In this document: piece after piece, positions 50,929 to 64,000 of the stretch
How positions within the stretch are numbered: position 1 is the stretch's first letter
Layout of the letters: each line of letters starts with the position of its first letter
Origin: Gordonia humi
Lineage (GTDB): Bacteria > Actinomycetota > Actinomycetes > Mycobacteriales > Mycobacteriaceae
Length of the DNA stretch: 64,000 bases
Direction of reading: 5' to 3'
Assembly: GCF_014197435.1 (NCBI RefSeq)
Contig: NZ_JACIFP010000001.1
Span: 1,364,001-1,428,000, forward strand
Position numbers and translations under genes: made by a program
Notes under the pieces: model-generated
Database searches by the model: none
The model's input: only the letters and a program-made list of their open reading frames with translations
What the model was told of the DNA's origin: nothing

Positions 50929-51990
50929 ATGATCGGGGACATGACCGATGTGCTGCTCGTCCTCGCCGCCGAACCGATTCACGCCGACCTCGCCCGATGC
51001 GCGGCGGCGGCCGGATACGCGATGGTGGTCGGCGACGCCGCGTCGTGCCGACACGACTGGCTGCGGGCGACGGCGGTCGCCGTGGACGCCGGTGCCGTCG
51101 ACGTCCTCGCCGCGCTGCATCCGCCGCGCCGCGGCGCCGTGGTGGTGGTCGGTGCGCGCGAGGACGATCCGCGCGCCTGGCAGACCGCGTTGTCGCTCGG
51201 CGCGCAGGGCGGTTTCGTGCTGCCCGACGAGGAGTCCGGACTCGTCGGTGCGCTCTCGGAGTTCCGGCGGCCGGTCCGCAGCCCGGCCGGCGTCGTCGCC
51301 GTGGTCGGCGGGCACGGTGGGGCGGGCGCGTCGTCGATGACGGCGGCCGTGGCACTCGTGGCCTCCGGGGCGGGGCAACGGGTCCTGCTCGTCGATGCGG
51401 ATCGTTCCGGTGCGGGTGCCGACCTGATATTGGGCGTGGAGGATGAACCGGGCCTGCGATGGCCGGACGTGACGGGCGAGACCGGTGCGATCGCGGGACC
51501 GGCACTGCGCGCCGCGTTGCCCGGCACCGGACGCATCAGTGTCATCACCTCCGGCCGTGACGACGCCGAACCCCTGCGTCCGGACACCGTGCTCGCCGTC
51601 GTGGACGCCGGGCGCTCGGCGGGCGACGTCGTGGTAGCCGATGTGGGCCGGGAGCCCGGACCGGTGGCGGCCGGACTCCTCGACAGTGCCGATGTCGCGG
51701 TCCTGGTGACGACGGCGTCGGTGCACGGTGTGGCGGCGAGCCGTCGGACGGCGGCTCGGCTGGTCGGCGACCGTGAGGCGCTGCTGGTGGTGCGTGGCCC
51801 GTCGCCGGGCGGGCTGCGGGCGCGGGACGTCGCCGACGCCGTCGGTCTTCCGCTCCTCGGCGGCTATCGTCCGGAGCGGGGGCTGGACCGGCGGTGCGAG
51901 GCCACCGGGCTGCGGCTGCGGCGGCGAGGACCGCTCACCAGGGCCGCGCAGGACGTGTACCGGCGGCTGCGTGCAGGAGCTCCGCGATGA
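50929..51990 (+). CDS. ssd: CpaE/MinD-like septum-site determining protein
   Basis: 353 residues. An N-terminal receiver-like domain (residues about 1-115) and a MinD/ParA-type ATPase domain with VVGGHGGAGASSMTAAVAL in place of the deviant Walker A (the signature Lys is missing) and LLVDADRSGAGADLILG. Homologue of Rv3660c; the CpaE role in Tad systems is to place the pilus machine. Start at 50929 or at the ATG 50941. Its stop overlaps the tadA start. Confidence 0.88.
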   Translation: MIGDMTDVLLVLAAEPIHADLARCAAAAGYAMVVGDAASCRHDWLRATAVAVDAGAVDVLAALHPPRRGAVVVVGAREDDPRAWQTALSLGAQGGFVLPDEESGLVGALSEFRRPVRSPAGVVAVVGGHGGAGASSMTAAVALVASGAGQRVLLVDADRSGAGADLILGVEDEPGLRWPDVTGETGAIAGPALRAALPGTGRISVITSGRDDAEPLRPDTVLAVVDAGRSAGDVVVADVGREPGPVAAGLLDSADVAVLVTTASVHGVAASRRTAARLVGDREALLVVRGPSPGGLRARDVADAVGLPLLGGYRPERGLDRRCEATGLRLRRRGPLTRAAQDVYRRLRAGAPR

Positions 51991-53165
51991 CCGCCACTGG
52001 GCGTGCCGACCTGCTCGAACGGGTTCGAGACCGCCTCGCGACGACGACAGCGGATCCCGAGCCGGGCGTGATCGCCGATGCGATCCGGGCCGAATCGGGC
52101 GGACTGCTCGGCGACACCGACCTGCTCGACGTCCTGCGCTATCTGCAGACCGAGATGGTGGGTGCCGGGCGCCTGGAAGGGCTCCTGGCCGACCCCGACG
52201 TGAGCGACGTCCTCGTGGTCGGCCCGGACAAGGTGTGGGCCGACCGCGGCGACGGACTGGAGCTGACCGGGGTGCGGTTCGACGACGAGGCCGCGGTGCG
52301 CCGCCTCGCCGGCCGCCTGGCTCTGGGCGCGGGCCGACGACTCGACGATGCGCAGCCGTGGGTGGACGGGCAGCTGTCGGGCGTCGGACGGCGGGACGCG
52401 GTGGTCCGCCTGCACGCGGTGATCCCGCCGCTCGCCGTCGACGGCACCTGCATCTCGCTGCGGGTGCTGCACAACGCGGCCCAGACGTTCGACACCCTCG
52501 TCCGATCGGGCGCGGTGCCCGGGGAAGCGGCCGAACTGCTGCGCGAGGCGGTCCGCGCACGCTTGGCGTTCCTGATCATCGGCGGGACCGGGACCGGGAA
52601 GACCACCCTCTTGAACGCCCTTCTCGGCCAGGTGGACCCGACCGAACGCGTGGTGACAGTGGAGGACGCGTCCGAGCTGGCGCCCCGGCATCCGCATGTG
52701 GTCCGGTTGGTCGCGCGCAACGCGAACGTCGAAGGCATCGGCGATGTGCCGGTCCGCGACCTGGTCCGGCAGGCTCTGCGGATGCGGCCGGACCGGATCG
52801 TCGTCGGCGAGGTCCGCGGCGCCGAGGTGATCGACCTGTTGATCGCGCTGAACACCGGGCACGACGGCTGCGCGGGCACGCTCCATGCGAACTCGACGTC
52901 GGAGGTGCCGGCTCGGATGGAGGCGCTCGCCGCACTCGGTGGAATGGATCGTGCGGCGCTGCACAGTCAGCTGGCCGCCGCGATCCAACTGGTGCTGGGG
53001 CTGGGGCGTGATCGCGACGGCCATCGCGGCCTCACCGAGATCGGGGTGCTGACACGGTCGGACGACGGGTTGATTCGGATCGAGACCGCGTGGTCTCGAC
53101 GCAGCGGTTTCACCGACGTCCGCGCCCGGATCGATGCGCTCGTCGCCGACCGGACGCCGGCGTGA
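51987..53165 (+). CDS. tadA: TadA/CpaF pilus-assembly ATPase
   Basis: 392 residues. A hexameric secretion ATPase of type IV/Tad pili, on the inner membrane. Walker A GGTGTGKTTLLNALLG at about residue 200, Asp box VEDASEL, Walker B RIVVGEVRGAEVIDLL, His box GHDGCAGTLHANST. CAGGAG 7 nt before the ATG, which overlaps the ssd stop. Confidence 0.95.
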   Translation: MTATGRADLLERVRDRLATTTADPEPGVIADAIRAESGGLLGDTDLLDVLRYLQTEMVGAGRLEGLLADPDVSDVLVVGPDKVWADRGDGLELTGVRFDDEAAVRRLAGRLALGAGRRLDDAQPWVDGQLSGVGRRDAVVRLHAVIPPLAVDGTCISLRVLHNAAQTFDTLVRSGAVPGEAAELLREAVRARLAFLIIGGTGTGKTTLLNALLGQVDPTERVVTVEDASELAPRHPHVVRLVARNANVEGIGDVPVRDLVRQALRMRPDRIVVGEVRGAEVIDLLIALNTGHDGCAGTLHANSTSEVPARMEALAALGGMDRAALHSQLAAAIQLVLGLGRDRDGHRGLTEIGVLTRSDDGLIRIETAWSRRSGFTDVRARIDALVADRTPA

Positions 53166-53947
53166 CCGTGGCGCCGCTGCTGGCGGCAGCGGGTGGAGTG
53201 ATCCTGCTGTGGCCGCGCCCCGCCGTGTGGCGGAGGTTGCCGGCCCGGGCCGTCGACCGGGATCGACGCGTGGTCGACACGATGTGGGCCGCGGCGGCGG
53301 CCCCGCTCGTCGTCGCCCTGCTCGTCGGGGCGGCCGCCGGTGTCGCGATCGCGATTGCGACCGCCACCGTGATGGGGCTGCGTCGTCGTGCGGCGCGGCG
53401 CGCGGACCGGGAGCGACGGCGCGACGAGCTGAGGAGGGGTGTCTCGGTGATGATCGCTGAGATGTCCGTCGGCGCGCCGTTGAGCGCGGCGTGTGCGAGC
53501 GCGGCGGAGGAACTGTCGCGGGACGGACCGTCGGAGGTTGCCGCCGAGCTCGCGCAGATGGCGGCGCGAGTCGAACTCGGCGGCGACCCGGCGGACGTCG
53601 TCGTGCGTGGCGATCGCGGCGTGGACCGACTGGCGGCGGCGTGGGCGGCGTCGGCGAGGTGGGGACTGCCGATGATCGATCTCCTTCAGATGCTGCGGTC
53701 GGATCTGTCGGCCCGCGCCGAGCACGTCGCGCGCACGCGAGCCGGGCTCGCGGGGCCCCGTGCGACGGCGATGGTTCTCGCGGGGTTGCCGATGCTGGGG
53801 ATCGGTCTCGGACAGCTGGTGGGCGCTCACCCGCTCACCGTGCTTCTCGGTCCGGGGATCGGGGGGATCGTTCTGATCGTCGGCACCTCGCTCGCCTCGG
53901 CCGGGGTGTGGTGGACCGATGCGATCACGGCGAAGGTCGTGCGGTGA
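53162..53947 (+). CDS. tadB: TadB pilus-assembly membrane platform protein
   Basis: 261 residues. Membrane helices near residues 42-65, 202-220 and 228-250, with a GspF/TadB-type cytoplasmic domain between (VSVMIAEMSVGAPLSAACASAAEEL). GTG start in a 4-nt overlap with tadA. Confidence 0.9.
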   Translation: MTVAPLLAAAGGVILLWPRPAVWRRLPARAVDRDRRVVDTMWAAAAAPLVVALLVGAAAGVAIAIATATVMGLRRRAARRADRERRRDELRRGVSVMIAEMSVGAPLSAACASAAEELSRDGPSEVAAELAQMAARVELGGDPADVVVRGDRGVDRLAAAWAASARWGLPMIDLLQMLRSDLSARAEHVARTRAGLAGPRATAMVLAGLPMLGIGLGQLVGAHPLTVLLGPGIGGIVLIVGTSLASAGVWWTDAITAKVVR

Positions 53948-54525
53948 TCGCCGTCGCCGCGTTCGCTGCCGCGCTCGCCCTCTGGATCTGGCCGGGGCCG
54001 GAATGGTCGCTGTTCCGGATCGTTCCGCGACCGCGGCCCGACCGTGCACCCCGCTGGCTGGGCGCGGGCGAGGCTGCGCCGGATCCGTTCGACGTCGCCG
54101 CCGCCTACGACCTGTTCGCGGTCTGCCTGCGGGCCGGGCTGCCGGTGTCCGCGGCCGCAGAGGTCACCGCGGCGCGGGCCCCGGACACGATCGCGGGGCC
54201 GCTCGAGCGTGCCGCCGATCTATTGGCTCTCGGCGCGGACGCGGAGATCGCATGGGCTGGGGGTGCGACGGTCGACCCGCTGTTCGCCGAACTCGCGACA
54301 CTGGCCCGCCGTGCTTCGCGGGCGGGTGCGTCGCTGGCCGACGGCGTCGCCGATCTGGCCGTCGCCACGCGGCGGCGGGCCGCCGATCGCGCGGTGGAGG
54401 CCGCGGAGAAGGCAGGTGTCAAGGTGAGCGGTCCGCTCGGGCTGTGCTTTCTGCCGGCATTCGTGTGCCTGGGGATCGTGCCGGTCGTGATCGGTCTGGC
54501 GTCGGGCATGCTCGGCGGGCTCTGA
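53944..54525 (+). CDS. tadC: TadC pilus-assembly membrane platform protein
   Basis: 193 residues, one N-terminal and one C-terminal membrane helix (LCFLPAFVCLGIVPVVIGLA) around a GspF-type domain (AYDLFAVCLRAGLPVSAAAE). Shorter than many TadC proteins but like Rv3657c. GTG start overlapping tadB. Confidence 0.88.
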   Translation: MIAVAAFAAALALWIWPGPEWSLFRIVPRPRPDRAPRWLGAGEAAPDPFDVAAAYDLFAVCLRAGLPVSAAAEVTAARAPDTIAGPLERAADLLALGADAEIAWAGGATVDPLFAELATLARRASRAGASLADGVADLAVATRRRAADRAVEAAEKAGVKVSGPLGLCFLPAFVCLGIVPVVIGLASGMLGGL

Positions 54526-54643: not shown

Positions 54644-54757
54644 ATGGGGATCGACGAATGGATGCGCTGGTGGGTGGAGACCAGGACGCTGACCGGGCGA
54701 CTGATGGCCGATGAGGACGGCATGTCCACGGTCGAATACTCCATTAATCTCAATTAA
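54644..54757 (+). pseudogene. DUF4244 (Flp-pilin-like) gene cut off by the second element
   Basis: The ATG at 54644 follows GAGGAGG. The peptide ends DEDGMSTVEYSI and then NLN and a stop. In the family (Rv3656c type) GMSTVEYAIGT is followed by a long hydrophobic helix. The G-MSTVEY motif resembles the prepilin cleavage site of Flp pilins. Here the hydrophobic part is gone: the serine-integrase element begins within a few bases of the break. TadE/TadF genes that normally follow are also displaced out of the window. Confidence 0.85.
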
Positions 54758-54778
54758 TACCTATGTATGATCCCTGAC

Positions 54779-56485
54779 ATGGGAAAACGCGCTCTGATCG
54801 TCATCCGGCTGTCCCGGGTCACCGATGCGACCACCTCGCCGGAACGGCAGTTGGCGGCGTGTCGGGAACTGTGCGAGCAGCGCGATTATGACGTAGTCGA
54901 CGTAGTCGAGGATCTCGACGTGAGCGCCGGTGCGACAACGCCTTTCACCCGGCCAAAGCTCGGCCCGTGGCTGAACAGCCGGCACCAGGAGTTCGATGTG
55001 CTGGTCTTCTACCGTGTCGACCGGATCGCACGTCGACTCTTCGACCTCTCGGAGCTGATCCAGTGGTCGCAGCGCCACGACGTAACCCTCGTGTCGGCCA
55101 CGGAGTCACACTTCGATCTGTCGAACGACTTCGGCGACATCATCGCGCTACTCATCGCGAAAGTGGCCGAGATGGAGTTGGCCGCAATCAGCGCCCGCAA
55201 TGCGTCGGCGTCGCACCACAACATCCGCAGCGGAAAGTGGAGGGGTGGGATCGCGCCCTGGGGTTATGTGCCGGAGAGGGGTGACGACAAGGTCTGGCGA
55301 CTCGTCCAGGACCCGGTGCAGGTTGAGGTGATCCACGAAGTCGTCGAGCGGGTGTTGGCTGGGGAACCGCTGCGGCCGATCGCAGCCGACCTCACGGCCC
55401 GCGGGGTACTGACGCCGAAGGACCGCATCAACCAGCTCAAAGGGCGGGAGATCAAGCACTACGCCTGGGCCAGTGGTCGGATGAAAGAGCAGCTGACCAG
55501 CCGAACGCTGTTGGGTCAGATCGTCACTCGTGACCCGGTGGTCGATGCCAAGGGTCAAGTTCAGCGAGACGCCAGGGGCCACAGGATCTTAGGGCCAGAG
55601 TTCGTCGTCACCGGAGATGATGGCCGGCCGGTGGTACGGGCGGAGCCGATCTTGACGCGGGAGATCTTCGACCGGGTCGGCGCGGCGCTGCGAGCCCGCG
55701 GGGTCGATCGCACGGCGACGACGACGTCGGGGTTACTGCTCAAGGTGCTGTTCTGCGGCCAGTGCGGGCGCCCGGCATACAGGCTCAAGGGCGGCCCGGG
55801 CCGCAAGCCGCGGTACCGGTGCGCCTATGCCCAGGACAAGAAGGGTGCGGCCGGCATCAAGGGGCCGTGCGACAACCGGAGCGTGCCGCTGGAGTGGGCT
55901 GACGCCGAGGTCGAGCGATACGTGCTCGACCGGGTCGGGCCGATGGAACGGATGGTGCGGACCTGGTTCAGCGGGAGCGATAGTCGCGGAGAGCTGGCCG
56001 AGATCGACGAGCTGCTCGGCGACCTAGTCGACCAGCTGGGCACGGGGGCATTCAAGCGCGGAACGCCGCAGCGAAAGCGGTTGGACGCCCGCATAGCGGC
56101 GCTGACTGAGCGACAGGACGAACTACGTGGCCAGCCGATCGAGCAGCCGTCATGGCGTTACGAGGGCACCGGCGAGTCGGTGTCGGAGTGGTGGAGCCGG
56201 GCCGACTCGGCGACCCGAACGGCGTGGTTACGGGAGTCGGGTGTGCGGGTTACGTGGCGTTCGCACACCGAGAGCGGCCGCACGAAGCTCGACAAGTTCG
56301 AGATCACGATGGGCCACGGTCCGGGCCTGGATGGTGGCGCGCTGCCGGGGCCGATGGCGGGCGCGGCTGAGGCCGTAAGTGCGTTCCGGTCACACGAACC
56401 GGCCGTGGCCGAGGTGATGGCCGGGATGGCGTCGACGTGGTGGCGCGAGGGCGATCTTCTGCAGGAAGTGGCAGACGAGGAGTAG
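54779..56485 (+). CDS. large serine recombinase (integrase)
   Basis: 568 residues. Catalytic Ser12 in VIRLSRVTDATTSPERQ, followed by the YRVDRIARRLFDL resolvase core. A recombinase domain at about residues 160-290, a zinc ribbon (CGQCGRPAY, then YRCAYAQ and PCDN) at about residues 320-370, a coiled-coil region, and a C-terminal tail. The ATG at 54779 is chosen because TATGAT (54765-54770) ends 8 nt upstream; the ATG at 54767 lies within that hexamer. It would join attP and attB without host factors. Confidence 0.93.
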   Translation: MGKRALIVIRLSRVTDATTSPERQLAACRELCEQRDYDVVDVVEDLDVSAGATTPFTRPKLGPWLNSRHQEFDVLVFYRVDRIARRLFDLSELIQWSQRHDVTLVSATESHFDLSNDFGDIIALLIAKVAEMELAAISARNASASHHNIRSGKWRGGIAPWGYVPERGDDKVWRLVQDPVQVEVIHEVVERVLAGEPLRPIAADLTARGVLTPKDRINQLKGREIKHYAWASGRMKEQLTSRTLLGQIVTRDPVVDAKGQVQRDARGHRILGPEFVVTGDDGRPVVRAEPILTREIFDRVGAALRARGVDRTATTTSGLLLKVLFCGQCGRPAYRLKGGPGRKPRYRCAYAQDKKGAAGIKGPCDNRSVPLEWADAEVERYVLDRVGPMERMVRTWFSGSDSRGELAEIDELLGDLVDQLGTGAFKRGTPQRKRLDARIAALTERQDELRGQPIEQPSWRYEGTGESVSEWWSRADSATRTAWLRESGVRVTWRSHTESGRTKLDKFEITMGHGPGLDGGALPGPMAGAAEAVSAFRSHEPAVAEVMAGMASTWWREGDLLQEVADEE

Positions 56486-56520
56486 AACCACGCCCCGACG
56501 GGGGCCGGCACCGGCTTGTG

Positions 56521-56774
56521 TGTAGCCGTGTAGCCAAAAAAGTGGCTCGCCGTAACTTCCCCCCATAGAGACCCCCTTTCCGGGAAAAGGTTATAGGGGG
56601 AGTTGGCTACATTGGCTACACACGGTATGACCTGCGGTTTCATGGATCATCCATGTAGCTTTTTGTAGCTTTTTTGAGCGAAAAAGCTACAACTGGCGGA
56701 GATGTCATGGATTATCCATGTCTGATGTAGCCAAAACGAGAAAAAAGCTACAACTGGCTACACCGGTAGCTACA
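56521..56774. repeat. TGTAGC iterons, ten or more copies
   Basis: TGTAGC at 56521, 56529, 56654, 56664 and 56726; inverted GCTACA at 56606, 56615, 56686, 56747, 56757 and 56769. Most copies are flanked by C/G on one side or A/T runs on the other (GTAGCTTTTT, AAAAGCTAC). Inverted and direct copies alternate in pairs. This is the form of a replication origin or of a multi-site operator. Confidence 0.75.
56642..56719. repeat. twin 13-bp palindromes 65 bp apart
   Basis: ATGGATCATCCAT (56642-56654) and ATGGATTATCCAT (56707-56719). Arms are identical, only the centre base differs. The first runs straight into a TGTAGC iteron. Likely operator pair of a dimeric regulator. Confidence 0.7.
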
Positions 56775-57026
56775 ACCACCCGGAAATGTGATCCTCATAA
56801 CATTGATCTCCGCTGTCTGGTCTGGGCTCTATTTCTGAGAGTAAAACTCGCCGATAGCTGTGACCAGTCGCGTTGCCACTTCGCTAGCAGTTTTTCCATT
56901 ACTCCACTTCCATTGTCGCCTCCGAATAGGCCTGTCTATCAGCGCTTTTCATCCTCGATCACCTTCGTCATGATGGGTGCAGGCCCAGCGGAAACGCCGC
57001 TCGGCGAACGGGAAGGAGGGGTGACG

Positions 57027-57206
57027 ATGACGGCACCTGTGCTGACCGGCCCGGCCGTCATATGGATGGCGCCGGCTGAGTACGCCGAATATCGCCGGCT
57101 CGGTATTGCCACTGTGTACCGACGGCTCAAGGCGGGGCGGATTCCCGGCGCAGAGCAGGCCGCAGAGCGCCATACATGGCGCATCCCGGTGCATACCGGG
57201 GTCTGA
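57027..57206 (+). CDS. small helix-turn-helix (excisionase-like) protein
   Basis: 59 residues: a winged-helix of the MerR/Xis kind with RLGIATVYRRLKAGRIPGAEQ and a beta hairpin RHTWRIPV. GGAGGG lies 6 nt before the ATG at 57027; a GTG at 57021 is in frame but too close. Candidate directionality factor or operator-binding protein. Confidence 0.75.
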   Translation: MTAPVLTGPAVIWMAPAEYAEYRRLGIATVYRRLKAGRIPGAEQAAERHTWRIPVHTGV

Positions 57207-57230
57207 CGGCGAACCAGCTGTAGAAACAAA

Positions 57231-57260
57231 GAACACCGGCCACGAGGGCCGGTGTTCTCT
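57231..57260 (+). terminator. 11-bp hairpin terminator after the HTH gene
   Basis: GAACACCGGCC (57231-57241) pairs with GGCCGGTGTTC (57247-57257), then TCT. It separates the HTH gene from the replication operon. Confidence 0.8.
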
Positions 57261-57328
57261 CAAGATTCTGTTATTCCCTACTCACGCGACGTGGCTGCAA
57301 CCGTGTCGCGCTACAAGGAGATTTTATC

Positions 57329-57796
57329 ATGTCTACCCCTGACATCGCACGTGCTGCGGGATCAATTGACGGTTTGAGCGACGCATACCTCGTCGCTGTC
57401 CATGTCCAGCGCGAGACTCAAGTCCTGACATTCATGGCCGCTGCGCGAGCGCGCATCGAGGCCAAGCTCGGAGCTGGCCGCCAGCTCACCGCGTGGGAAG
57501 AGACGAACCGGGCCCGCGCATTGGGTACGCCCCTGGATGAAACACAGCCTGCGGTGGCCTTGTCGGCACTGGTGGCTGCCACCCAGGTGGATTTCAATCA
57601 ATCAATCATCACCGCATACGCCGAGCTGGTGTTCCCTGGAAAAGGCATCGTGGCCGCGCTGACAGGTGATCACGACGCATATCGCGTCGGCCGGTTCGCC
57701 CGGGCGCACAACGGCCAATTTGCACCGTGGAGCTTCATCGACTCCCGGGGTCAGGACGCTGCGGATCTGCTGGCGTATGCGCGGGAGGTGCTGTGA
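57329..57796 (+). CDS. hypothetical protein at the head of the replication operon
   Basis: 155 residues, helical, ATG with AAGGAG (57315-57320) 8 nt upstream. No known motif. One nucleotide separates its stop from the vapE start. Position suggests a replication accessory factor. Confidence 0.65.
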   Translation: MSTPDIARAAGSIDGLSDAYLVAVHVQRETQVLTFMAAARARIEAKLGAGRQLTAWEETNRARALGTPLDETQPAVALSALVAATQVDFNQSIITAYAELVFPGKGIVAALTGDHDAYRVGRFARAHNGQFAPWSFIDSRGQDAADLLAYAREVL

Positions 57797-57797
57797 A

Positions 57798-59045
57798 ATG
57801 GCTTTCAACCCCGCGAAGATCACGATCAAGCGCGCCCGCGCTGAGGCTGTGTACAACCCGGACGCGGTCACGGCCGCGGGGCTCCGGGTCTCCGGTGCCG
57901 AGATCAAGCCGACCATCCATGCGGTCGCAAAGCTGCTCGATGCGCTGTACCCCCGTGACGATCTCTTCTACGACATCGACCTGGAGCATATCCAGTTCGG
58001 CGACATGGTCGGCCTGGAAGCGACCACCGCGCTGACCAGTGAACTGGAGGTGATCACCGGCAAGGCCGGGTGGTACGAGAAGAGGGCGCTGGTCTACGAC
58101 GTGATCGAGTCCACTCGTCGTCGGTCGCCGCACGCGGCGATGCTGCTGGCGGTCCCGAAAGATCTTCCGGTGGCTGACCTCGCGCCGTGGACGAGCCGAT
58201 TCGTCGATCCGGAGTTCGCCGACGAGGCGATCCGTCTGATGGTGCACGGCTACGTGCTGCGAGGGTTGGAGCCGGGGTCGAAGTTCGACTATGCCGGAAT
58301 CCTCGTCGGCCCCCAGGGCACGGGCAAGACCACGTTGTGGGAGCGCCTGGTCCGTGGCCGGGAGATCGCGTACGACGCCGACGACCGCCGACCGATGGAG
58401 ACCTCCGCGACGTGCGAGCGGATCGTGCTGGAGGAAGCCAGCTCGGAGCTGTTCAAGCATGAGCGCTTCAACGCCTTTAAGGACCGGGTCACCATGACCT
58501 CGCGTGGTGAGGATGTGAAATACATTCGCGGAAAAGGCCAGCTCAAGGCTCGCGCCGTGCTGGTGGGGACTAGTAACGACATCTTCCTCCTGCACCCGAA
58601 TCTGGAAGGAACGCGACGGTTTCTGATGTTGGTGATGGACCGGTCGGACGCATCCCTCATGCCGTATCTCACCGATGAGGTGTGGGAGCGTTTGGTGTCT
58701 GAGGCCCTGCGCAGGATCGATGACGAGGCAGTGCCAGTGCTCTCGCCCTCGTGCGAGGAGCGTCAGCGGGCCGCGCTGGCCATGGTGACACGGCCGGACG
58801 ACGATCTCGACATCCTGAAGTTCGTTCTGGACGAGCGCATCCGTGCCGTCGGCTATTTCCAGAAGGGTGATCTGCGTGAGGAAGTCGCCGACATTGATCC
58901 GGATCTCGCCCGCGGGCCCGCATTTGGTCGGGCGTGGCGCAAGGTGCAGCACGAGTACACCCAGGTATCAATGCGTGTGGGCAGCCGCGTGACGAAAGTA
59001 TTTGTCCCCGCATCGGCGCCTACCGTGACGGTGGTTGCGCCATGA
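57798..59045 (+). CDS. VapE/virulence-associated-E-type helicase
   Basis: 415 residues. P-loop GPQGTGKTTLWERL at about residues 171-184, Walker B-like IVLEEASSEL, and the arginine-finger region RRFLMLVMD. The VirE domain is a superfamily-3-like helicase found with polymerases or primases in phages and satellites. ATG at 57798; stop overlaps the polymerase start. Confidence 0.85.
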   Translation: MAFNPAKITIKRARAEAVYNPDAVTAAGLRVSGAEIKPTIHAVAKLLDALYPRDDLFYDIDLEHIQFGDMVGLEATTALTSELEVITGKAGWYEKRALVYDVIESTRRRSPHAAMLLAVPKDLPVADLAPWTSRFVDPEFADEAIRLMVHGYVLRGLEPGSKFDYAGILVGPQGTGKTTLWERLVRGREIAYDADDRRPMETSATCERIVLEEASSELFKHERFNAFKDRVTMTSRGEDVKYIRGKGQLKARAVLVGTSNDIFLLHPNLEGTRRFLMLVMDRSDASLMPYLTDEVWERLVSEALRRIDDEAVPVLSPSCEERQRAALAMVTRPDDDLDILKFVLDERIRAVGYFQKGDLREEVADIDPDLARGPAFGRAWRKVQHEYTQVSMRVGSRVTKVFVPASAPTVTVVAP

Positions 59046-60961
59046 GCATCGATTCGATTTATCTCGACTACGAGACCCGCCTCCGCGGGGGCGACGACCG
59101 GTATCTCCAGGACCATGGTCCGTATCTCTACACCGAGCGTCCCGACTTCGAGGTCACGCTGCTGGCCTGCAGGGTCGGGGCTGGTGCCACGCACGTGGTG
59201 GAGGGCGCTGACGCCATCCGTCGCGTGACGTGGTTCCTGATCGACTACGCCGCCCGCACAGGCCGAAAACTGGTCGCGCACAACGCGAGCTTCGACCGGT
59301 TGGTGGCATCGCGGGTACTGGGCATGCCAACGGGTGAGTACCTCGACCCAGCTGGCTGGGACGACACGCTGCCACGGGCCAGGCTGGCCAGCCTTCCGGG
59401 CAGCCTGGCCGGTCTGGCTGAAGCGTTCGGCGCGCCGGCCAAGCTAGATGAGGGTAAGGATCTGATTCGGATGTTCGGCTCGGCCGACACTCCGCTAGAG
59501 GAGATCATCGCTGCGCATCCGGTGGAGTGGGCGCGGTTCATCGAATATGCCCGCCGCGACGTCGACGCGCTGGCGCACATCGACGCGCAGTTGTTCTGGC
59601 CACGGCCGGAAGAACGTCGTATGTGGGTGCTCGACCAGCAGATCAACGACCGGGGTATCGAGGTGGATCGCGACTACTGCCGCGCAGCAGATACCACCGC
59701 TCGGTCAGCGCAGCAGCGCGATCGTGATCGGCTGATCGAGATCACCGGTGTGGACAATCCGAACTCGGTCCCGCAAGTGAAGGTGTGGTTTGAGTCGCGG
59801 GGTTTCCGCCCACCAAATCTCCAGCGGGAGACGCTGGCCAGACATCTGCCTGCGGACCTGGAGCAGGCCGAATGGCTCAAGGGGCACAAGGACCGCAAAG
59901 ACCTTCCTGACGACGTGCTGGAGGTGATCCGTATCAAGACCGCTGGCGGAGTCGTCGGTCGGTGGAAGAAGCTGCTCGACTGGACGTGTTCGGACGGCCG
60001 GATTCGGGGCGCATACGTGTTCGCCACGGCGCACACCGGTCGGTGGTCGAGCCGTGGTGCGCAGCTGCACAACATGTCCCGGGATTCCGTCGGCGACACC
60101 GACGCTGAGGTCGAGGCATTTGTGCAGCGGATCGTCGACGATCCGGACGGCGTCGAGTTGTCGCTGCGGGATATGCGGGGTGGGCTGCGGCCTGCCCTGG
60201 TCGGACCATTCACCGTCGTGGATTTCAGCGCGATCGAGGCTCGCGTACTCGCCTGGTTGACCGGCGAGGATGACATTTGTGAGCTATTCGAAGCAGGTGA
60301 GGACGTCTACGTGGACGCCGCCCGCAAGATCGGGCTCGATGTGCCGGACAAGGCCGGGGACCCGGCTGGCTACAAGGCTGTCCGCGGGCAGGGCAAAGTG
60401 ATGACGCTGGCCGCCGGGTACGGCGGCGGGCCGGCAACGCTGCGGGCTCAGGGTGCCGTCGGCACCGATGCGGAGATCAAGGCTCTGGCCAAGGCCTGGA
60501 AGCAGGCGCGTCGTCCCGTAACCCGGCTATGGCGGGATCTCGAACGAGGGCTGAGCTGCCGGGTCCGGCGGCTGCGTGGGGTGGCGATGGTGCGCGGGGA
60601 TGCCCGCTCCCGGGAGTTGGTGCTACCAAGCGGTCGCACACTGCGCTATGCCCGGGTCCGGGAGACGGGCACGGGCGACTACATCTACGACAAGCCACAC
60701 GGCGGGATCGGGAAACTGTGGGGCGGAACGCTCACCAACAACCTGTGTCAGGCGGTCGCCCGCGATCTCCTGGTCGAAGCGCTGCTGCGGCTCGATGATG
60801 CGGGTTACACGGTCGTTGGCCATGTGCACGACGAGGTCATTCTCGAAGGCCACCACGACGTCGACCTCATCGTCAAGACCATGTGCCAACTACCCCGGTG
60901 GGCAGCCGGACTGCCGCTCGCGGCCGAGGGATACCACTGCAACCGCTACCGAAAGGACTGA
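59042..60961 (+). CDS. family-A DNA polymerase with 3'-5' exonuclease domain
   Basis: 639 residues. Exonuclease motifs LDYET (residues 8-12), HNASFDRL and YARRDVDAL. Polymerase motif A VVDFSAIEARVLAW (catalytic Asp394), motif B region GQGKVMTLAAGYGG, motif C GHVHDEVIL (Asp597). It resembles T7-like and plasmid polymerases rather than host PolA, which has an extra 5' nuclease domain. With VapE it gives the element its own leading replication enzymes. Confidence 0.93.
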   Translation: MSIDSIYLDYETRLRGGDDRYLQDHGPYLYTERPDFEVTLLACRVGAGATHVVEGADAIRRVTWFLIDYAARTGRKLVAHNASFDRLVASRVLGMPTGEYLDPAGWDDTLPRARLASLPGSLAGLAEAFGAPAKLDEGKDLIRMFGSADTPLEEIIAAHPVEWARFIEYARRDVDALAHIDAQLFWPRPEERRMWVLDQQINDRGIEVDRDYCRAADTTARSAQQRDRDRLIEITGVDNPNSVPQVKVWFESRGFRPPNLQRETLARHLPADLEQAEWLKGHKDRKDLPDDVLEVIRIKTAGGVVGRWKKLLDWTCSDGRIRGAYVFATAHTGRWSSRGAQLHNMSRDSVGDTDAEVEAFVQRIVDDPDGVELSLRDMRGGLRPALVGPFTVVDFSAIEARVLAWLTGEDDICELFEAGEDVYVDAARKIGLDVPDKAGDPAGYKAVRGQGKVMTLAAGYGGGPATLRAQGAVGTDAEIKALAKAWKQARRPVTRLWRDLERGLSCRVRRLRGVAMVRGDARSRELVLPSGRTLRYARVRETGTGDYIYDKPHGGIGKLWGGTLTNNLCQAVARDLLVEALLRLDDAGYTVVGHVHDEVILEGHHDVDLIVKTMCQLPRWAAGLPLAAEGYHCNRYRKD

Positions 60962-60965
60962 AGTC

Positions 60966-61637
60966 ATGAATGCCGTATTTGACGATGTGGACGAACCTGC
61001 GCGGGCTGCCCTGATAGCAGCCGTGCGACGGGCTTCCGACGATCTCCCCTGGGAAGTGGCCCGCCGACAATGGGACGTGGTCGACACCGACTACGACGAA
61101 GATTGCGCTGGCGTGTGCGTGTGCGGCCAGACCGGCTTGGGGTGGTTGTACACGATCACGAACCGAGAGACCGAGCGGACGCTGTACCCCATTGGTTCAG
61201 ATTGCATCGCGCATTTCGAGGTGGACGTGATGGTGGAGGCGGCGCGAGATCTCGCCGAACTTGAGCGGGTTCGGATGTGGGTCGCCGACGGCGCCCACCT
61301 CGATCTCAAAGCGCACCTCTCACGGCGCCGGCTGCGGGTCATGTTGGAGCGTGGGCTTATCAGCCGCGAGGGCTACGAGGTGCTACGAGCGCTCTACAAC
61401 CGCCGTCGGCCACTCACCGTCGATGAACACGTGAGCGCGGAGCGGCTCCTGCGCGAGATCGTCGCCCCCGCGCTGGGTGGTGATTCCGAGGCCGAGATCG
61501 TCGACGACCCGGCGTACGTGAACGGACACCGCGACGCATACGTGCGCGGTGTGATGACGGCGCCTAGCGGGTCGACGTCGGCGTATGTGATCGGCCACTA
61601 CGACGGGGTCCGCTTGGCGGACGATGCCGTGGCATAA
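60966..61637 (+). CDS. hypothetical protein with CxC zinc-like motif
   Basis: 223 residues, 4 nt after the polymerase stop. GVCVCGQTGLGWLYTITN and PIGSDCIAHF form a Cys-rich beta unit seen in many element-borne proteins that bind nucleic acid. The remainder is helical. Last gene before a strong terminator. Confidence 0.7.
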   Translation: MNAVFDDVDEPARAALIAAVRRASDDLPWEVARRQWDVVDTDYDEDCAGVCVCGQTGLGWLYTITNRETERTLYPIGSDCIAHFEVDVMVEAARDLAELERVRMWVADGAHLDLKAHLSRRRLRVMLERGLISREGYEVLRALYNRRRPLTVDEHVSAERLLREIVAPALGGDSEAEIVDDPAYVNGHRDAYVRGVMTAPSGSTSAYVIGHYDGVRLADDAVA

Positions 61638-61657
61638 GACCCTGTACACCAGCACAC

Positions 61658-61690
61658 AACACCCCCGCACACGCTGTGCGGGGGTGTTTT
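61658..61690 (+). terminator. 14-bp Rho-independent terminator of the replication operon
   Basis: AACACCCCCGCACA (61658-61671) pairs with TGTGCGGGGGTGTT (61675-61688) around a 3-nt loop, followed by TT. A model intrinsic terminator. Confidence 0.92.
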
Positions 61691-63228
61691 CTGCTGTCCG
61701 ACAGACGATTTAGCGTCCCTACCTAGAGGCATCAACGCCTCCGGGTAGAGGCCCTGACTGCTCGTGGGGCGCAACGTGGTGGCTTTCCAGAGGCGATGCG
61801 TGGCTCTTCGGCGGGCGTCATAGCCGCCTGCGTGCGTCCCTGTGCAATCTATGGCGCCAGTCGCGTCTTTCGTTGCGGCGCAATCGCCTTCGTGGAGCCC
61901 CCACTTTGCGTCGTAGACGCCTCATGGCTCTGTATCACGCGGCCTACGACGCAAGCCGGAGGCGTTGTGAAGGCGTTGTCGGGGCACTGTGGCCGCTGAT
62001 CTGGGGCGTCATGGGCGCAAGCTGGTGACACAGCCTCCAGCGGGAGGCGTGTAAGACGCTTCGTAGCGCCGATACTTGGCTCTCGTAGACGCTAGTAGAC
62101 GGCCTCAGCGACGCACGGTTGCGTCGCTGGGACCACGAGTTTTGGTGTGGAGTAGTGATTTTCACTCCCGACTTCTCTTCTGGCGTCGTCTCGCCCTCGA
62201 TCAGAACCCCGTCCAGACGGTCCGCCGAGGACCGCAGGGGCCCACGCTCTGGACCGGTATCGGACCACGGTCCGCTACCGGGTCTATCCTCTCTCCGCGG
62301 CTGGCCGGCTCCCGCGCCAGCGTGGGCCTGCCGGTCCGCGGATCTCGTGCAGGCGCACCGGGTGGATCGACTGTGATCGGCTCTCCGGAACACCGCCGCG
62401 CTGGCCCGCCTAGCCTCCGCCGCCAGGCGGCGGTGCAGCCGAGGGGCAGGTTCGCCCGCTTGCGGGCGGGCACGCCCGGGCTAGCGATGATCCCGAACCA
62501 CCGGCGATCGACCTCCTGGCTACCGCCGGGACCGCTCCCGGGCGGGCGGCCGACCGTCGGCAGTGCCCCGAGTGGGTATCAGCGGGGGTATCGAGGGCGG
62601 GTAGGGAGTACACGCAGCGACCTGGGCTTTTGTCGGGGGTGTACGCCTGGGGGTGGACACTTCCGGTCGTCGCAGGTCACAGCGTTGCGGCGAGTGTACT
62701 CACTCGCGCTGACCTGGGCGTTCACGACCGGCCCTCGACCGGTCGAGGAGTTTGTGGCGTGTATATGGGTAAACGCCGCGCACCCGACGGCGGTCCAGCA
62801 CTGCCGCAGGTCCGACGCGAGCGAGCGAGTGTTGGGCCGTAGGCGGGATCAGGTCCACGGCGCGCCGTTGACCTGGGGTGTTTGTATTTCTTGGCTTGCC
62901 TCCGGCAGGACGACAGGGACACCCGAGCGCAGCGAGCAGGGAGGGAGGGCGAAGCCCGACCGACCGGGTGTCCAATGGCGCCTTGGACACCCGGACCGAG
63001 GCTTGATACCCATAGGGGGTAGGGGTATGATCGGTGGGGACAGGGGCCCCGACGATCATGGACCTGCCTGGGTATCGACCTCGGGCCGGGTGGCCCGTCC
63101 CGCTTCACGGCGGTGTGGGCAGGCCGGTGAGCGCAAGCGAGCCCGGCCAGGGCCCCACGGCGACGGGGAGCGGGTCCCGCCGCAGGCGGGGATCTTCATT
63201 CCAATCGGCCGACGGAGGAGGGCGAGTC
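61691..63228. other. 1.5-kb hairpin-rich region without protein genes
   Basis: No frame here has a ribosome site and protein-like composition. 61700-62130 is dense in short GGCGT/GACGC words and stems, for example CAGCGACGCA/TGCGTCGCTG (62106-62129) and GCGTCGTAGACGC near 61908. 62200-62480 contains many G/C stems (CCGCCGCC/GGCGGCGG near 62415-62435, GCCCGCTTGCGGGC near 62453). 62600-63050 has repeated GTGTAC/GGGTGT and GACCTGGG words. It lies between the replication operon and the relaxase candidate, the place for an origin of replication or transfer or for structured RNA. Confidence 0.6.
63006..63028 (+). promoter_or_regulatory. candidate oriT/nic hairpin
   Basis: ATACCC (63006-63011) and GGGTAT (63023-63028) flank ATAGGGGGTAG, a small stem with a G-rich loop about 200 bp before the relaxase candidate. 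MobV-type relaxases nick at short hairpins upstream of their own gene. No exact match to a known nic site was recognised. Confidence 0.35.
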
Positions 63229-64000
63229 GTGAGCGAAGCGAGCACCGGTGCGACGCGCAAGGGTCGTGCGTCGATGGACATCGACGGTCACCGGTCGGCG
63301 GACGGCACCCGTCGGGGGCACTCGCGCTCGCGCAAGAACATCAGCACCGAGGCTCAGCGCAAGACCGCTGGGCCGGAAGCGGTGGCGTGGTACGCCGCGC
63401 AGAACCCGGCGGTGAATATCGAGAAGACGTATTTGAACGTCGACCGCGTGAACGATGGTGATGGCGGGTTCCGCGAGACCGGGTCGATCGCCGAGGTGGT
63501 CGCCTACGGTGACGCCCGCGAGGAGCGGGTGCGCAAGGGCATCAAGACCGGGGAGCGGTTCGCGGTCACGCAGGTGCACCACCTGCCGTGGTCCTATGTC
63601 GAGGAAGACGGCACGTTCTATCAGCCTCGGCACCGCGACGGGACGCCCCGTGTGGACGCGGCCGGGCTGCCCGTGATGCTGCCGCGATACCGGGTCATCC
63701 CGGGCATGGAGGAAGAAGCGCAGAAGTACTTCGAGGACTGCCTGGAGTTCGACGCCGCGCTCCTGCCCGATGGGCAGAAGGGCATCCACGGGTACAGCAT
63801 CCAGTTCGACGAGCACCGCCCGCATCTGCAGGTTCTCATGGACGCGTACTACGAGGCTCCGACGAAGAAGGACGCCGAGAAGATGGAGAACGGCTACAGC
63901 CGGGCGTTCGGGAGCCACCGCACCGATCGGCTGGTGCCGGCGGCCACGGACGAGGGCAAGGCCATCTTCAATGCGGACGGCACCCAGAAGATGGTCCGTG
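63229..64000 (+). CDS. MobV/Pre-like relaxase candidate, cut by the window edge
   Basis: 257 codons visible, no stop. GTG at 63229 with GGAGGAGG 8 nt upstream. A basic, disordered N-terminus (residues 1-45) is followed by an alpha/beta part with YLNVDRVNDGDGG and, at about residues 188-202, HGYSIQFDEHRPHLQVLMDA. The (H/x)xDE..PH pattern in a beta strand resembles motif II/III of MobV relaxases (HxDE..PHxH), with one His replaced. A replication initiator with a related fold is the alternative. Confidence 0.55.
   Translation, partial: MSEASTGATRKGRASMDIDGHRSADGTRRGHSRSRKNISTEAQRKTAGPEAVAWYAAQNPAVNIEKTYLNVDRVNDGDGGFRETGSIAEVVAYGDAREERVRKGIKTGERFAVTQVHHLPWSYVEEDGTFYQPRHRDGTPRVDAAGLPVMLPRYRVIPGMEEEAQKYFEDCLEFDAALLPDGQKGIHGYSIQFDEHRPHLQVLMDAYYEAPTKKDAEKMENGYSRAFGSHRTDRLVPAATDEGKAIFNADGTQKMVR

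Follow-up and report, generated by a model that had tools for sequence, protein, structure and literature searches.

Mobile elements are argued to disrupt the competence genes comYC, comFA, comK, and comM and so to escape curing by transformation (Croucher 2016; PMC4774983). In that account, convergent insertion sites in comFA are taken as evidence of selection (PMC4774983). A term search of its main text returned no mention of actinobacteria, mycobacterium, micrococcus, or tad (PMC4774983).

For actinobacteria, a model is Micrococcus luteus, where transformation is stated to be abolished by deletion of comEC or of any open reading frame (ORF) of the tad cluster but one, flp included; polar effects of these single-gene deletions were not excluded by the authors (PMC4322843). 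Flp is presented there as the major pilin (Angelov 2015, PMC4322843), and the combination of tad clusters with ComEA/ComEC is described there as a frequent one among actinobacteria (PMC4322843). For Mycobacterium tuberculosis, a seven-gene order tadZ-A-B-C-flp-E-F has been described. Natural transformation in Gordonia was not reported among the best 8 of 221 matches of a search of the open-access literature, and no published report of an insertion in the DUF4244 pilin gene was found among the matches listed.

In Mycobacterium abscessus, all three serine-integrase attB sites described disrupt ORFs, and coding targets are described as common for serine integrases. When the core of the Listeria phage A118 attachment site was made symmetric by engineering, both deletion and inversion products were reportedly obtained (PMC3556126). 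PMC9531140, PMC12637031, PMC3783163, PMC12884075, and PMC8092301 also served as background.

In the current study, we examined a 64,000-nucleotide stretch of the 5.09-Mb genome of Gordonia humi (C1:1364001-1428000; hereafter the window) and extended the analysis to related genomes. Positions beyond 64,000 continue the window numbering along the same contig.

A split prepilin gene in the tad locus of G. humi

The genes of the locus that lie within the window are on the plus strand. The tad locus starts with an ssd/tadZ-like ORF (50929..51990), whose matches to ParA/CbiA-type P-loop families are below the cut-off and whose position is kept in relatives. The ORF of the ATPase gene tadA (51894..53165) matches PF00437 (8.6e-52) and TIGR03819 (1.1e-145) above the cut-off, and its real start is probably near 51987. 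It is followed by tadB (53090..53947; PF00482, 1.7e-8) and by tadC (53491..54525; PF00482, 4.1e-12), an ORF that opens early and whose conserved region begins at ∼53941. Directly 3′ of ssd-tadA-tadB-tadC is the 5′ part of a DUF4244/Flp prepilin gene (54644..54736), which extends from an ATG at 54644 through the leader and G/MSTVE to the crossover and ends in ...DEDGMSTVE. On its own, this proximal ORF gave no family match in the profile search.

The original prediction held that a serine-integrase element interrupts this gene at its prepilin motif, that it parts ssd-tadABC from the distal tad genes, and that the missing half of DUF4244 should lie beyond the window. Both junctions do fall within DUF4244. 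The distal part is located at the right end of the element, 30,151 bp away from the proximal part (C1:1448882-1448998, window numbering 84882-84998; PF14029 positions 16-54, E 5.9e-16, 60.5 bits with a cut-off of 27), and directly upstream of tadE (NF041390) and an Rv3654c-like gene (TIGR03816). Three features identify the divided gene as a prepilin gene: the above-cut-off PF14029 match of the distal half, the G/XXXXEY cleavage motif (GMSTVEY at the junction), and the location between tadC and tadE.

A crossover TA dinucleotide is common to both ends (54737-54738 and 84888-84889), and the pilin is cut at the Glu-Tyr (EY) codons of GMSTVEY. The cut had been placed after GMSTVEYSI, which correctly names the prepilin motif; however, the host sequence terminates within the EY codons, and the residues "SI" are derived from the element. 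Comparison with attR and with 12 other elements delimits attL (54707..54768), whose host half is to the left of the TA and whose element half (P arm) is to the right. At the length we infer for it, attB spans the most conserved codons of the pilin gene, which are those of the cleavage motif G/XXXXEY.

An in-frame stop is present shortly upstream of the distal half. No ATG, GTG, or TTG occurs in the interval from this stop to the conserved EY, the earliest GTG being located beyond the cleavage motif, and therefore no complete prepilin can be re-expressed from the distal half. A PF14029 profile search found no second DUF4244 gene in the genome, and the three matches to PF04964 Flp elsewhere in the genome are all below the cut-off. 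Joining the flanks by script yields an open empty-site frame, which agrees with the proposal that excision would restore the gene exactly. The same is true for 13 of the 13 elements with both ends located.

Composition of the integrated element

The window contains the left part of the 30,151-bp element (54737..64000, plus strand), which continues to 84887 (C1:1448887). Its G+C content is 64.4%, compared with 70.2% and 68.2% for the flanks. The integrase ORF begins 30 bp past the crossover (54767..56485, plus strand) and encodes a Bxb1-like large serine integrase with resolvase, recombinase, and zinc-ribbon domains (PF00239, PF07508, and PF13408; phrog_95, 3.4e-105). This protein is 46.6% identical to Bxb1 gp35 over residues 8-497 and at most 48.8% identical to any protein among the 25 phage records listed.

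Matches to the integrase were found in 851 phage records, none at 60% identity or more, and thus that phage collection holds no close relative. None of the 75 matching plasmid records reaches 60% either. A scan of named organisms, which uses single-protein patterns and detects close kin only, returned one relative, in Gordonia amarae NBRC 15530 (contig NZ_BAED01000076.1; 78% for the integrase). The integrase of genome G042, located at a contig start, is likewise 78% identical to the G. humi enzyme. Viral contigs contribute 16 matching loci, and a DUF4244 half adjoins the match in two of these (L165 and L166), L165 having the same residues as the double insertion in G728 described below.

The integrase gene is followed on the plus strand by genes for a VapE-like helicase/primase domain protein (57666..59045; PF05272, 1.3e-18; phage helicase families), a family A DNA polymerase (PolA; 58934..60961; PF00476, 9.3e-13; phrog_17, 5e-98), and a putative mobilization relaxase of 642 residues (63034..64000, running on to 64962). 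The last of these looks relaxase-like by eye, has no family match in the profile searches, and shares 27% identity over 252 amino acids with an ORF of the G019 element. Other genes of the element encode a VirD4-like coupling protein, a small resolvase, a D12 methylase, and ArdA. A BglII-like nuclease is encoded beside an MT-A70 methylase (70869-72665; L002:6869-8665), with relatives at 70-80% in the G019 element, and apparent cargo close to the right end consists of an MMPL transporter, a DUF302 protein, and a CsoR-type regulator (81684-84644). Virion families were absent among the matches of the ten element proteins compared with PHROGs. The element is integrative and probably mobilizable.

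A second Bxb1-like integrase gene of G. humi is frameshifted (70% over 247 residues) and lies away from the pilin gene (C1 ∼2682440-2677900; L164). It belongs to a ∼4.5-kb insertion within a short CRISPR-like array, with three 61-bp units before the insertion and one degenerate repeat after it. The flanks, when joined by eye, give a spacer of normal length, and no cas genes were noticed nearby when the ORF lists were viewed.

Recurrent interruption of the prepilin gene

DUF4244 is present in 59 of 59 Gordonia genomes and is interrupted in 10. Nine have the distal part only, starting at profile position 14-17 (G000, which is G. humi, and G002, G009, G019, G020, G042, G054, G063, and G071), and G047 has the proximal part only. 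Two control families are also present in all 59 genomes: TadE (NF041390) and LepA_C (107 positions), each with no case of splitting by insertion, although TadE is in two overlapping pieces in G002 and is without its first 12 positions in G056. The difference between 10/59 and 0/118 for the two control families is significant when related species are counted as independent (Fisher's test, p 9.8e-6). By these counts, the pilin gene is an insertion hot spot, beyond chance given the two control families.

An eleventh genome carries what appears to be a scar. In G022 (L051), the distal half is repeated 4.9 kb downstream of a whole pilin gene (87% over 901 bp), together with a second tadE and tadF. 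The locus of G002 has a broken tadA; neither tadB nor tadC was found there, and no relative of the G. humi integrase is present within the 40 kb examined. Flanking tad genes can be read as single tblastn pieces in G000, G009, G019, G020, and G071. The distal halves are little changed: in eight of the nine EY-cut Gordonia genomes (G002 being left aside), the numbers of changes at 23 conserved columns are 0, 0, 0, 0, 0, 1, 1, and 2, where the columns were set on 19 intact genomes and so favor the intact set. The value of 2 is that of G. humi.

At the level of the order, DUF4244 is present in 232 of 249 genomes. Twenty whose matches looked weak or double were selected by visual inspection, and eight of them are clearly split or truncated, six at EY (G265, G151, G028, G302, G270, and G127) and two further on (G293 and G144). 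Nine looked full-length, divergent, or too weak for judgment. In G107 and G196 (L091-L094), DUF4244 is divided into two pieces at yet another place, near profile positions 22-29, and no recombinase was recognized near the ends examined. In G027 (C1:2560811-2574637; L054), an additional 3′ half lies 13.7 kb beyond a whole DUF4244 (97.6% identity over 840 bp). G302 retains the distal half, along with ORFs that resemble IS21 and replication initiators by eye, and its proximal half was not recognized in 57 kb upstream. A class-level survey gave DUF4244 matches in 340 of 394 genomes, and twelve were followed up. Among these, G432 (match 20-54; 3.1-kb locus viewed for ORFs) may represent another interruption. 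Partial matches are also seen in G126 (weak, 2-40) and G308 (6-41).

Distinct recombinases at the same gene

Three lineages of serine integrases use the pilin gene, at two places (the EY and VVT codons). The Bxb1-like lineage to which the G. humi enzyme belongs (family A) has matches at E 1e-60 or better in at least 21 of 401 family-level genomes, which is possibly an undercount since three candidates were scored per genome. In 14 of these 21, no more than 80 bp separate the integrase match from a DUF4244 half, and the addition of G019, G020, and G063 gives 17 genomes with family A at EY. No DUF4244 half was seen in the integrase locus of the other seven (G003, G856, G841, G662, G903, G075, and G800), which indicates that the wider family is not bound to the pilin. 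The family A integrase is itself interrupted by a stop or break in G151 and G265.

Lineage B (G028, G127, and G270) has integrases that share 57-69% identity with one another and no more than ∼27% with family A. Its distal pilin halves also begin at EY, and its proximal halves were not seen in these three genomes. The original prediction called for a survey of other genomes for insertions at the same codon, and such insertions proved to be common to both lineages. Lineage C (G047 and G293, 44% identical to each other) cuts at the VVT codons. In G728 (C53 ∼18780; L158), the pilin gene holds two unrelated serine-integrase elements: one of family A at EY and, ∼90 bp further along, one with an integrase of the G047 type (62%) that follows VVT. 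The far end of the second element does not fall within the stretch taken.

Two phage-integrase-family proteins and a DUF6262 protein are encoded directly after the VVS codons in G144, a trio that we take to be the make-up of Tn554. A Tn554-like set is thus probably also at the pilin gene, and the far end of this insertion was not found. The kinds of element differ as well: a coupling protein is encoded in G000, a relaxase (PF03432) in G020, terminase, portal, and major head proteins in G293, and a major head protein in G047. Targeting by distinct integrases has therefore converged on this gene, a feature of comYC-type elements.

A palindromic TA core, with elements in either orientation

When the element arms are joined, the attP of the Bxb1-like family is an imperfect inverted repeat centered on a palindromic TA. 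This TA is the best of 29 centers in seven of seven elements, with summed matches of 100 compared with a mean of 38.9 (sd 7.4). In a wider set of 13 elements, TA is strictly best in 11 (including G732, 13 vs 10), shares the top score in G804 (11 and 11), and is outscored in G842 (9 vs 10).

Bxb1-like systems are characterized by an asymmetric core that fixes orientation; here the core is TA, and elements are found both ways round. The integrase is at the left end and reads with the pilin gene in nine genomes (G000, G019, G020, G071, G054, G265, G938, G701, and G842), and it is at the right end and reads against it in eight (G009, G042, G063, G816, G151, G804, G732, and G728). TA is self-complementary, and the symmetric A118 core gives both classes of product, so an element can land either way round.

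The rest of the element largely follows. The coupling protein, p369, and ArdA genes of G000 are reversed in order and strand relative to those of G009, and the two backbones are mostly inverted. ArdA reads against the pilin gene in G000, G019, G020, and G054 (integrase left) and with it in G009 (integrase right). A counter-example to inversion of the whole element is the small resolvase (34-39% identical), which is on the same strand in G000 and G009 and on opposite strands in G000 and G019.

Left and right orientations interleave on a tree that covers 14 of the 17 integrases, with five changes for left and four for right. Values as low were obtained in 62 of 500 shuffles for left and in 8 of 500 for right, which is more clustered than most, on a tree with long branches. 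Judging from this tree, orientation is not set by integrase lineage. Promoter capture, in which the tad promoter drives the integrase, was considered and rejected on the basis of the mixed orientation (9:8). The TA-core family appears to be a natural orientation-free serine integrase, a property that we have met in print only in the engineered A118 variant (PMC3556126).

Interruption of comEC

If DNA uptake is the target, then comEC should also be found split, and this gene was then examined. The comEC gene (PF03772) is present in 59 of 59 Gordonia genomes and is in two parts in four of them, ∼40 kb apart in G004, ∼46 kb apart in G069, and each across two contigs in G060 and G061. The cut falls at one motif, [VI]AVSG/[SA]N (slash marks the cut), in the three genomes whose sequence covers both flanks, and this motif also terminates the G061 contigs. 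A serine integrase is present at the junction in G004 and G060 (left end) and in G069 (right end). These integrases are 58-71% identical among themselves and 23-30% identical to the pilin lineages. The comEC gene of G049 appears to be frameshifted and was excluded from the count.

The ratio of 4/59 compared with 0/118 gives an uncorrected p of 0.0115 for a gene that was picked because of the DNA-uptake hypothesis. No genome is shared between the 10 with a split flp and the four with a split comEC; since only ∼0.7 would be expected by chance, this lack of overlap is uninformative. G064 (L149) has a whole comEC gene and an additional 3′ half (99.1% over 1,052 bp). Like the locus of G022, this combination of intact gene and remnant could be a scar of incomplete curing by one-sided overwriting, and other routes to such loci are possible.

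Possible functions of the insertions

In the mechanism that we propose, a Bxb1-like integrase has recombined the element with attB at the cleavage-motif codons of the single Flp gene, cutting at TA. A G. humi cell would lose its sole Flp pilin and hence its Tad pilus. Transformation would then be blocked, and the element would escape replacement by incoming element-free DNA (chromosomal curing). Transformation of the host, its lowering by the insertion, and a benefit that has selected the target are steps that we infer, as is the loss of the pilus. Precise excision may restore the pilin in a few cells, which we would view as a by-product of the element's mobility and not as regulated switching. 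That the elements disable DNA uptake in a comYC-like manner, by cutting the Flp pilin gene or comEC, and gain from blocked transformation has, in our estimate, an even chance of being correct. We are led to it because tad/flp and ComEC are needed for uptake in M. luteus, and because comEC is cut by a different lineage of integrases. The need for the pilin in DNA uptake is known for M. luteus only, and the insertion itself is found in Gordonia.

Because the control families number only two, the strongest rival is that flp and comEC are simply safe harbors, conserved and dispensable genes that offer long-lived attB sites and whose lost function brings no gain. Their conservation fits well (DUF4244 in 59/59 genomes of the genus and 232/249 of the order, comEC in 59/59), serine integrases often choose coding targets, as illustrated by the description of three attB sites of three in ORFs of M. 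abscessus, and family A is without an adjoining DUF4244 half in 7 of 21 genomes. However, unrelated recombinases have inserted at two places of a 54-position domain while tadE and LepA_C are each split in 0/59, and the second hot gene, comEC, belongs to the same pathway, though it was sought on purpose. We consider this explanation unlikely but worth serious attention. The original prediction raised the possibility of an on/off switch for the pilus like the phage-regulated ones in comK and sporulation genes, and a regulated switch of this type would act by excision and reintegration (active lysogeny). An empty-site frame that is open in 13/13 elements, tad neighbors that are readable in five genomes, and distal halves with few changes at conserved columns are what a switch should leave, but these features also fit recent insertion. 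Moreover, no sign of regulated excision was seen in the sequences, mixed orientation means that the integrase is not tied to the tad promoter in a consistent way, and some loci are decayed or scarred, including G022, G002 with its broken tadA and no tadB or tadC found, and, to the extent of two conserved-column changes, the distal half of G. humi. A switch is therefore improbable. Loss of DNA uptake accounts for both the flp and the comEC insertions and is preferred for this reason.

It had also been suggested that the choice of target protects the resident element by closing an entry route. Pili are common receptors, and their loss could bar pilus-binding phages or mating partners; the fact that phage-like and mobilizable elements alike use the pilin gene is consistent with such exclusion. 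The target choice does look nonrandom and may protect the element, but entry exclusion leaves comEC unexplained, since this inner-membrane DNA channel is not a surface receptor and is targeted as well. We regard it as very unlikely.

A broader form of the uptake hypothesis states that unrelated recombinases have converged on Flp and ComEC, that Tad-dependent transformation is widespread in Mycobacteriales and costly to elements, and that the TA core gives either orientation. This combination is plausible, although on balance we lean slightly against its holding in full. If true, the comYC-type conflict between elements and transformation reaches actinobacteria and Tad/Flp pili, and the insertions are genomic evidence for DNA uptake by many Mycobacteriales. 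The conserved and poorly understood Rv3654c-Rv3660c-type locus would become accessible to a transformation assay. The findings would also make available several integrases directed at a single short attB that is widely conserved in actinobacteria.

Comparison with known systems

The nearest well-known integrase family is that of mycobacteriophage Bxb1, which is described as integrating into a coding gene, groEL1; the target gene differs from that used here. Loss of groEL1 affects biofilm. The Bxb1 core is nonpalindromic, and its dinucleotide reportedly determines the orientation of integration, a result that is said to date from Ghosh in 2003.

Listeria phage A118 in comK is similar in that a serine integrase uses an attB in a competence gene and an attP with an inverted repeat around the core (PMC3556126). 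The A118 core is described as GG, an asymmetric dinucleotide that sets the orientation (PMC3556126), unlike the TA of the elements studied here. In Acinetobacter, one transformation gene, comM, is likewise disrupted repeatedly by diverse elements, AbaR and other islands (PMC11472951). In contrast to the Gordonia case, loss of comM is reported to reduce recombination rather than uptake, and other recombinases and another phylum are involved (PMC11472951).

Tad genes are also described for M. luteus and M. tuberculosis. M. luteus is described as having two tad clusters and no TadZ (PMC4322843), unlike the Gordonia locus. The reported M. tuberculosis Flp peptide TGDSIVSALNR resembles the C-terminus of the G020 DUF4244 protein, TGDSIVSAL.

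The closest parallel is formed by the comYC (comGC) prophages of streptococci and lactococci, which reportedly insert into the coding region for the major DNA-uptake pilin (PMC4774983). In that system also, several integrases use several sites in competence genes, and this pattern is read as protection against curing (PMC4774983). The Gordonia data have the same form as those of Croucher, in another phylum. The differences are that the target here is the Tad/Flp pilin of actinobacteria, that the core is a palindromic TA, and that transformation is as yet unproven for the host.
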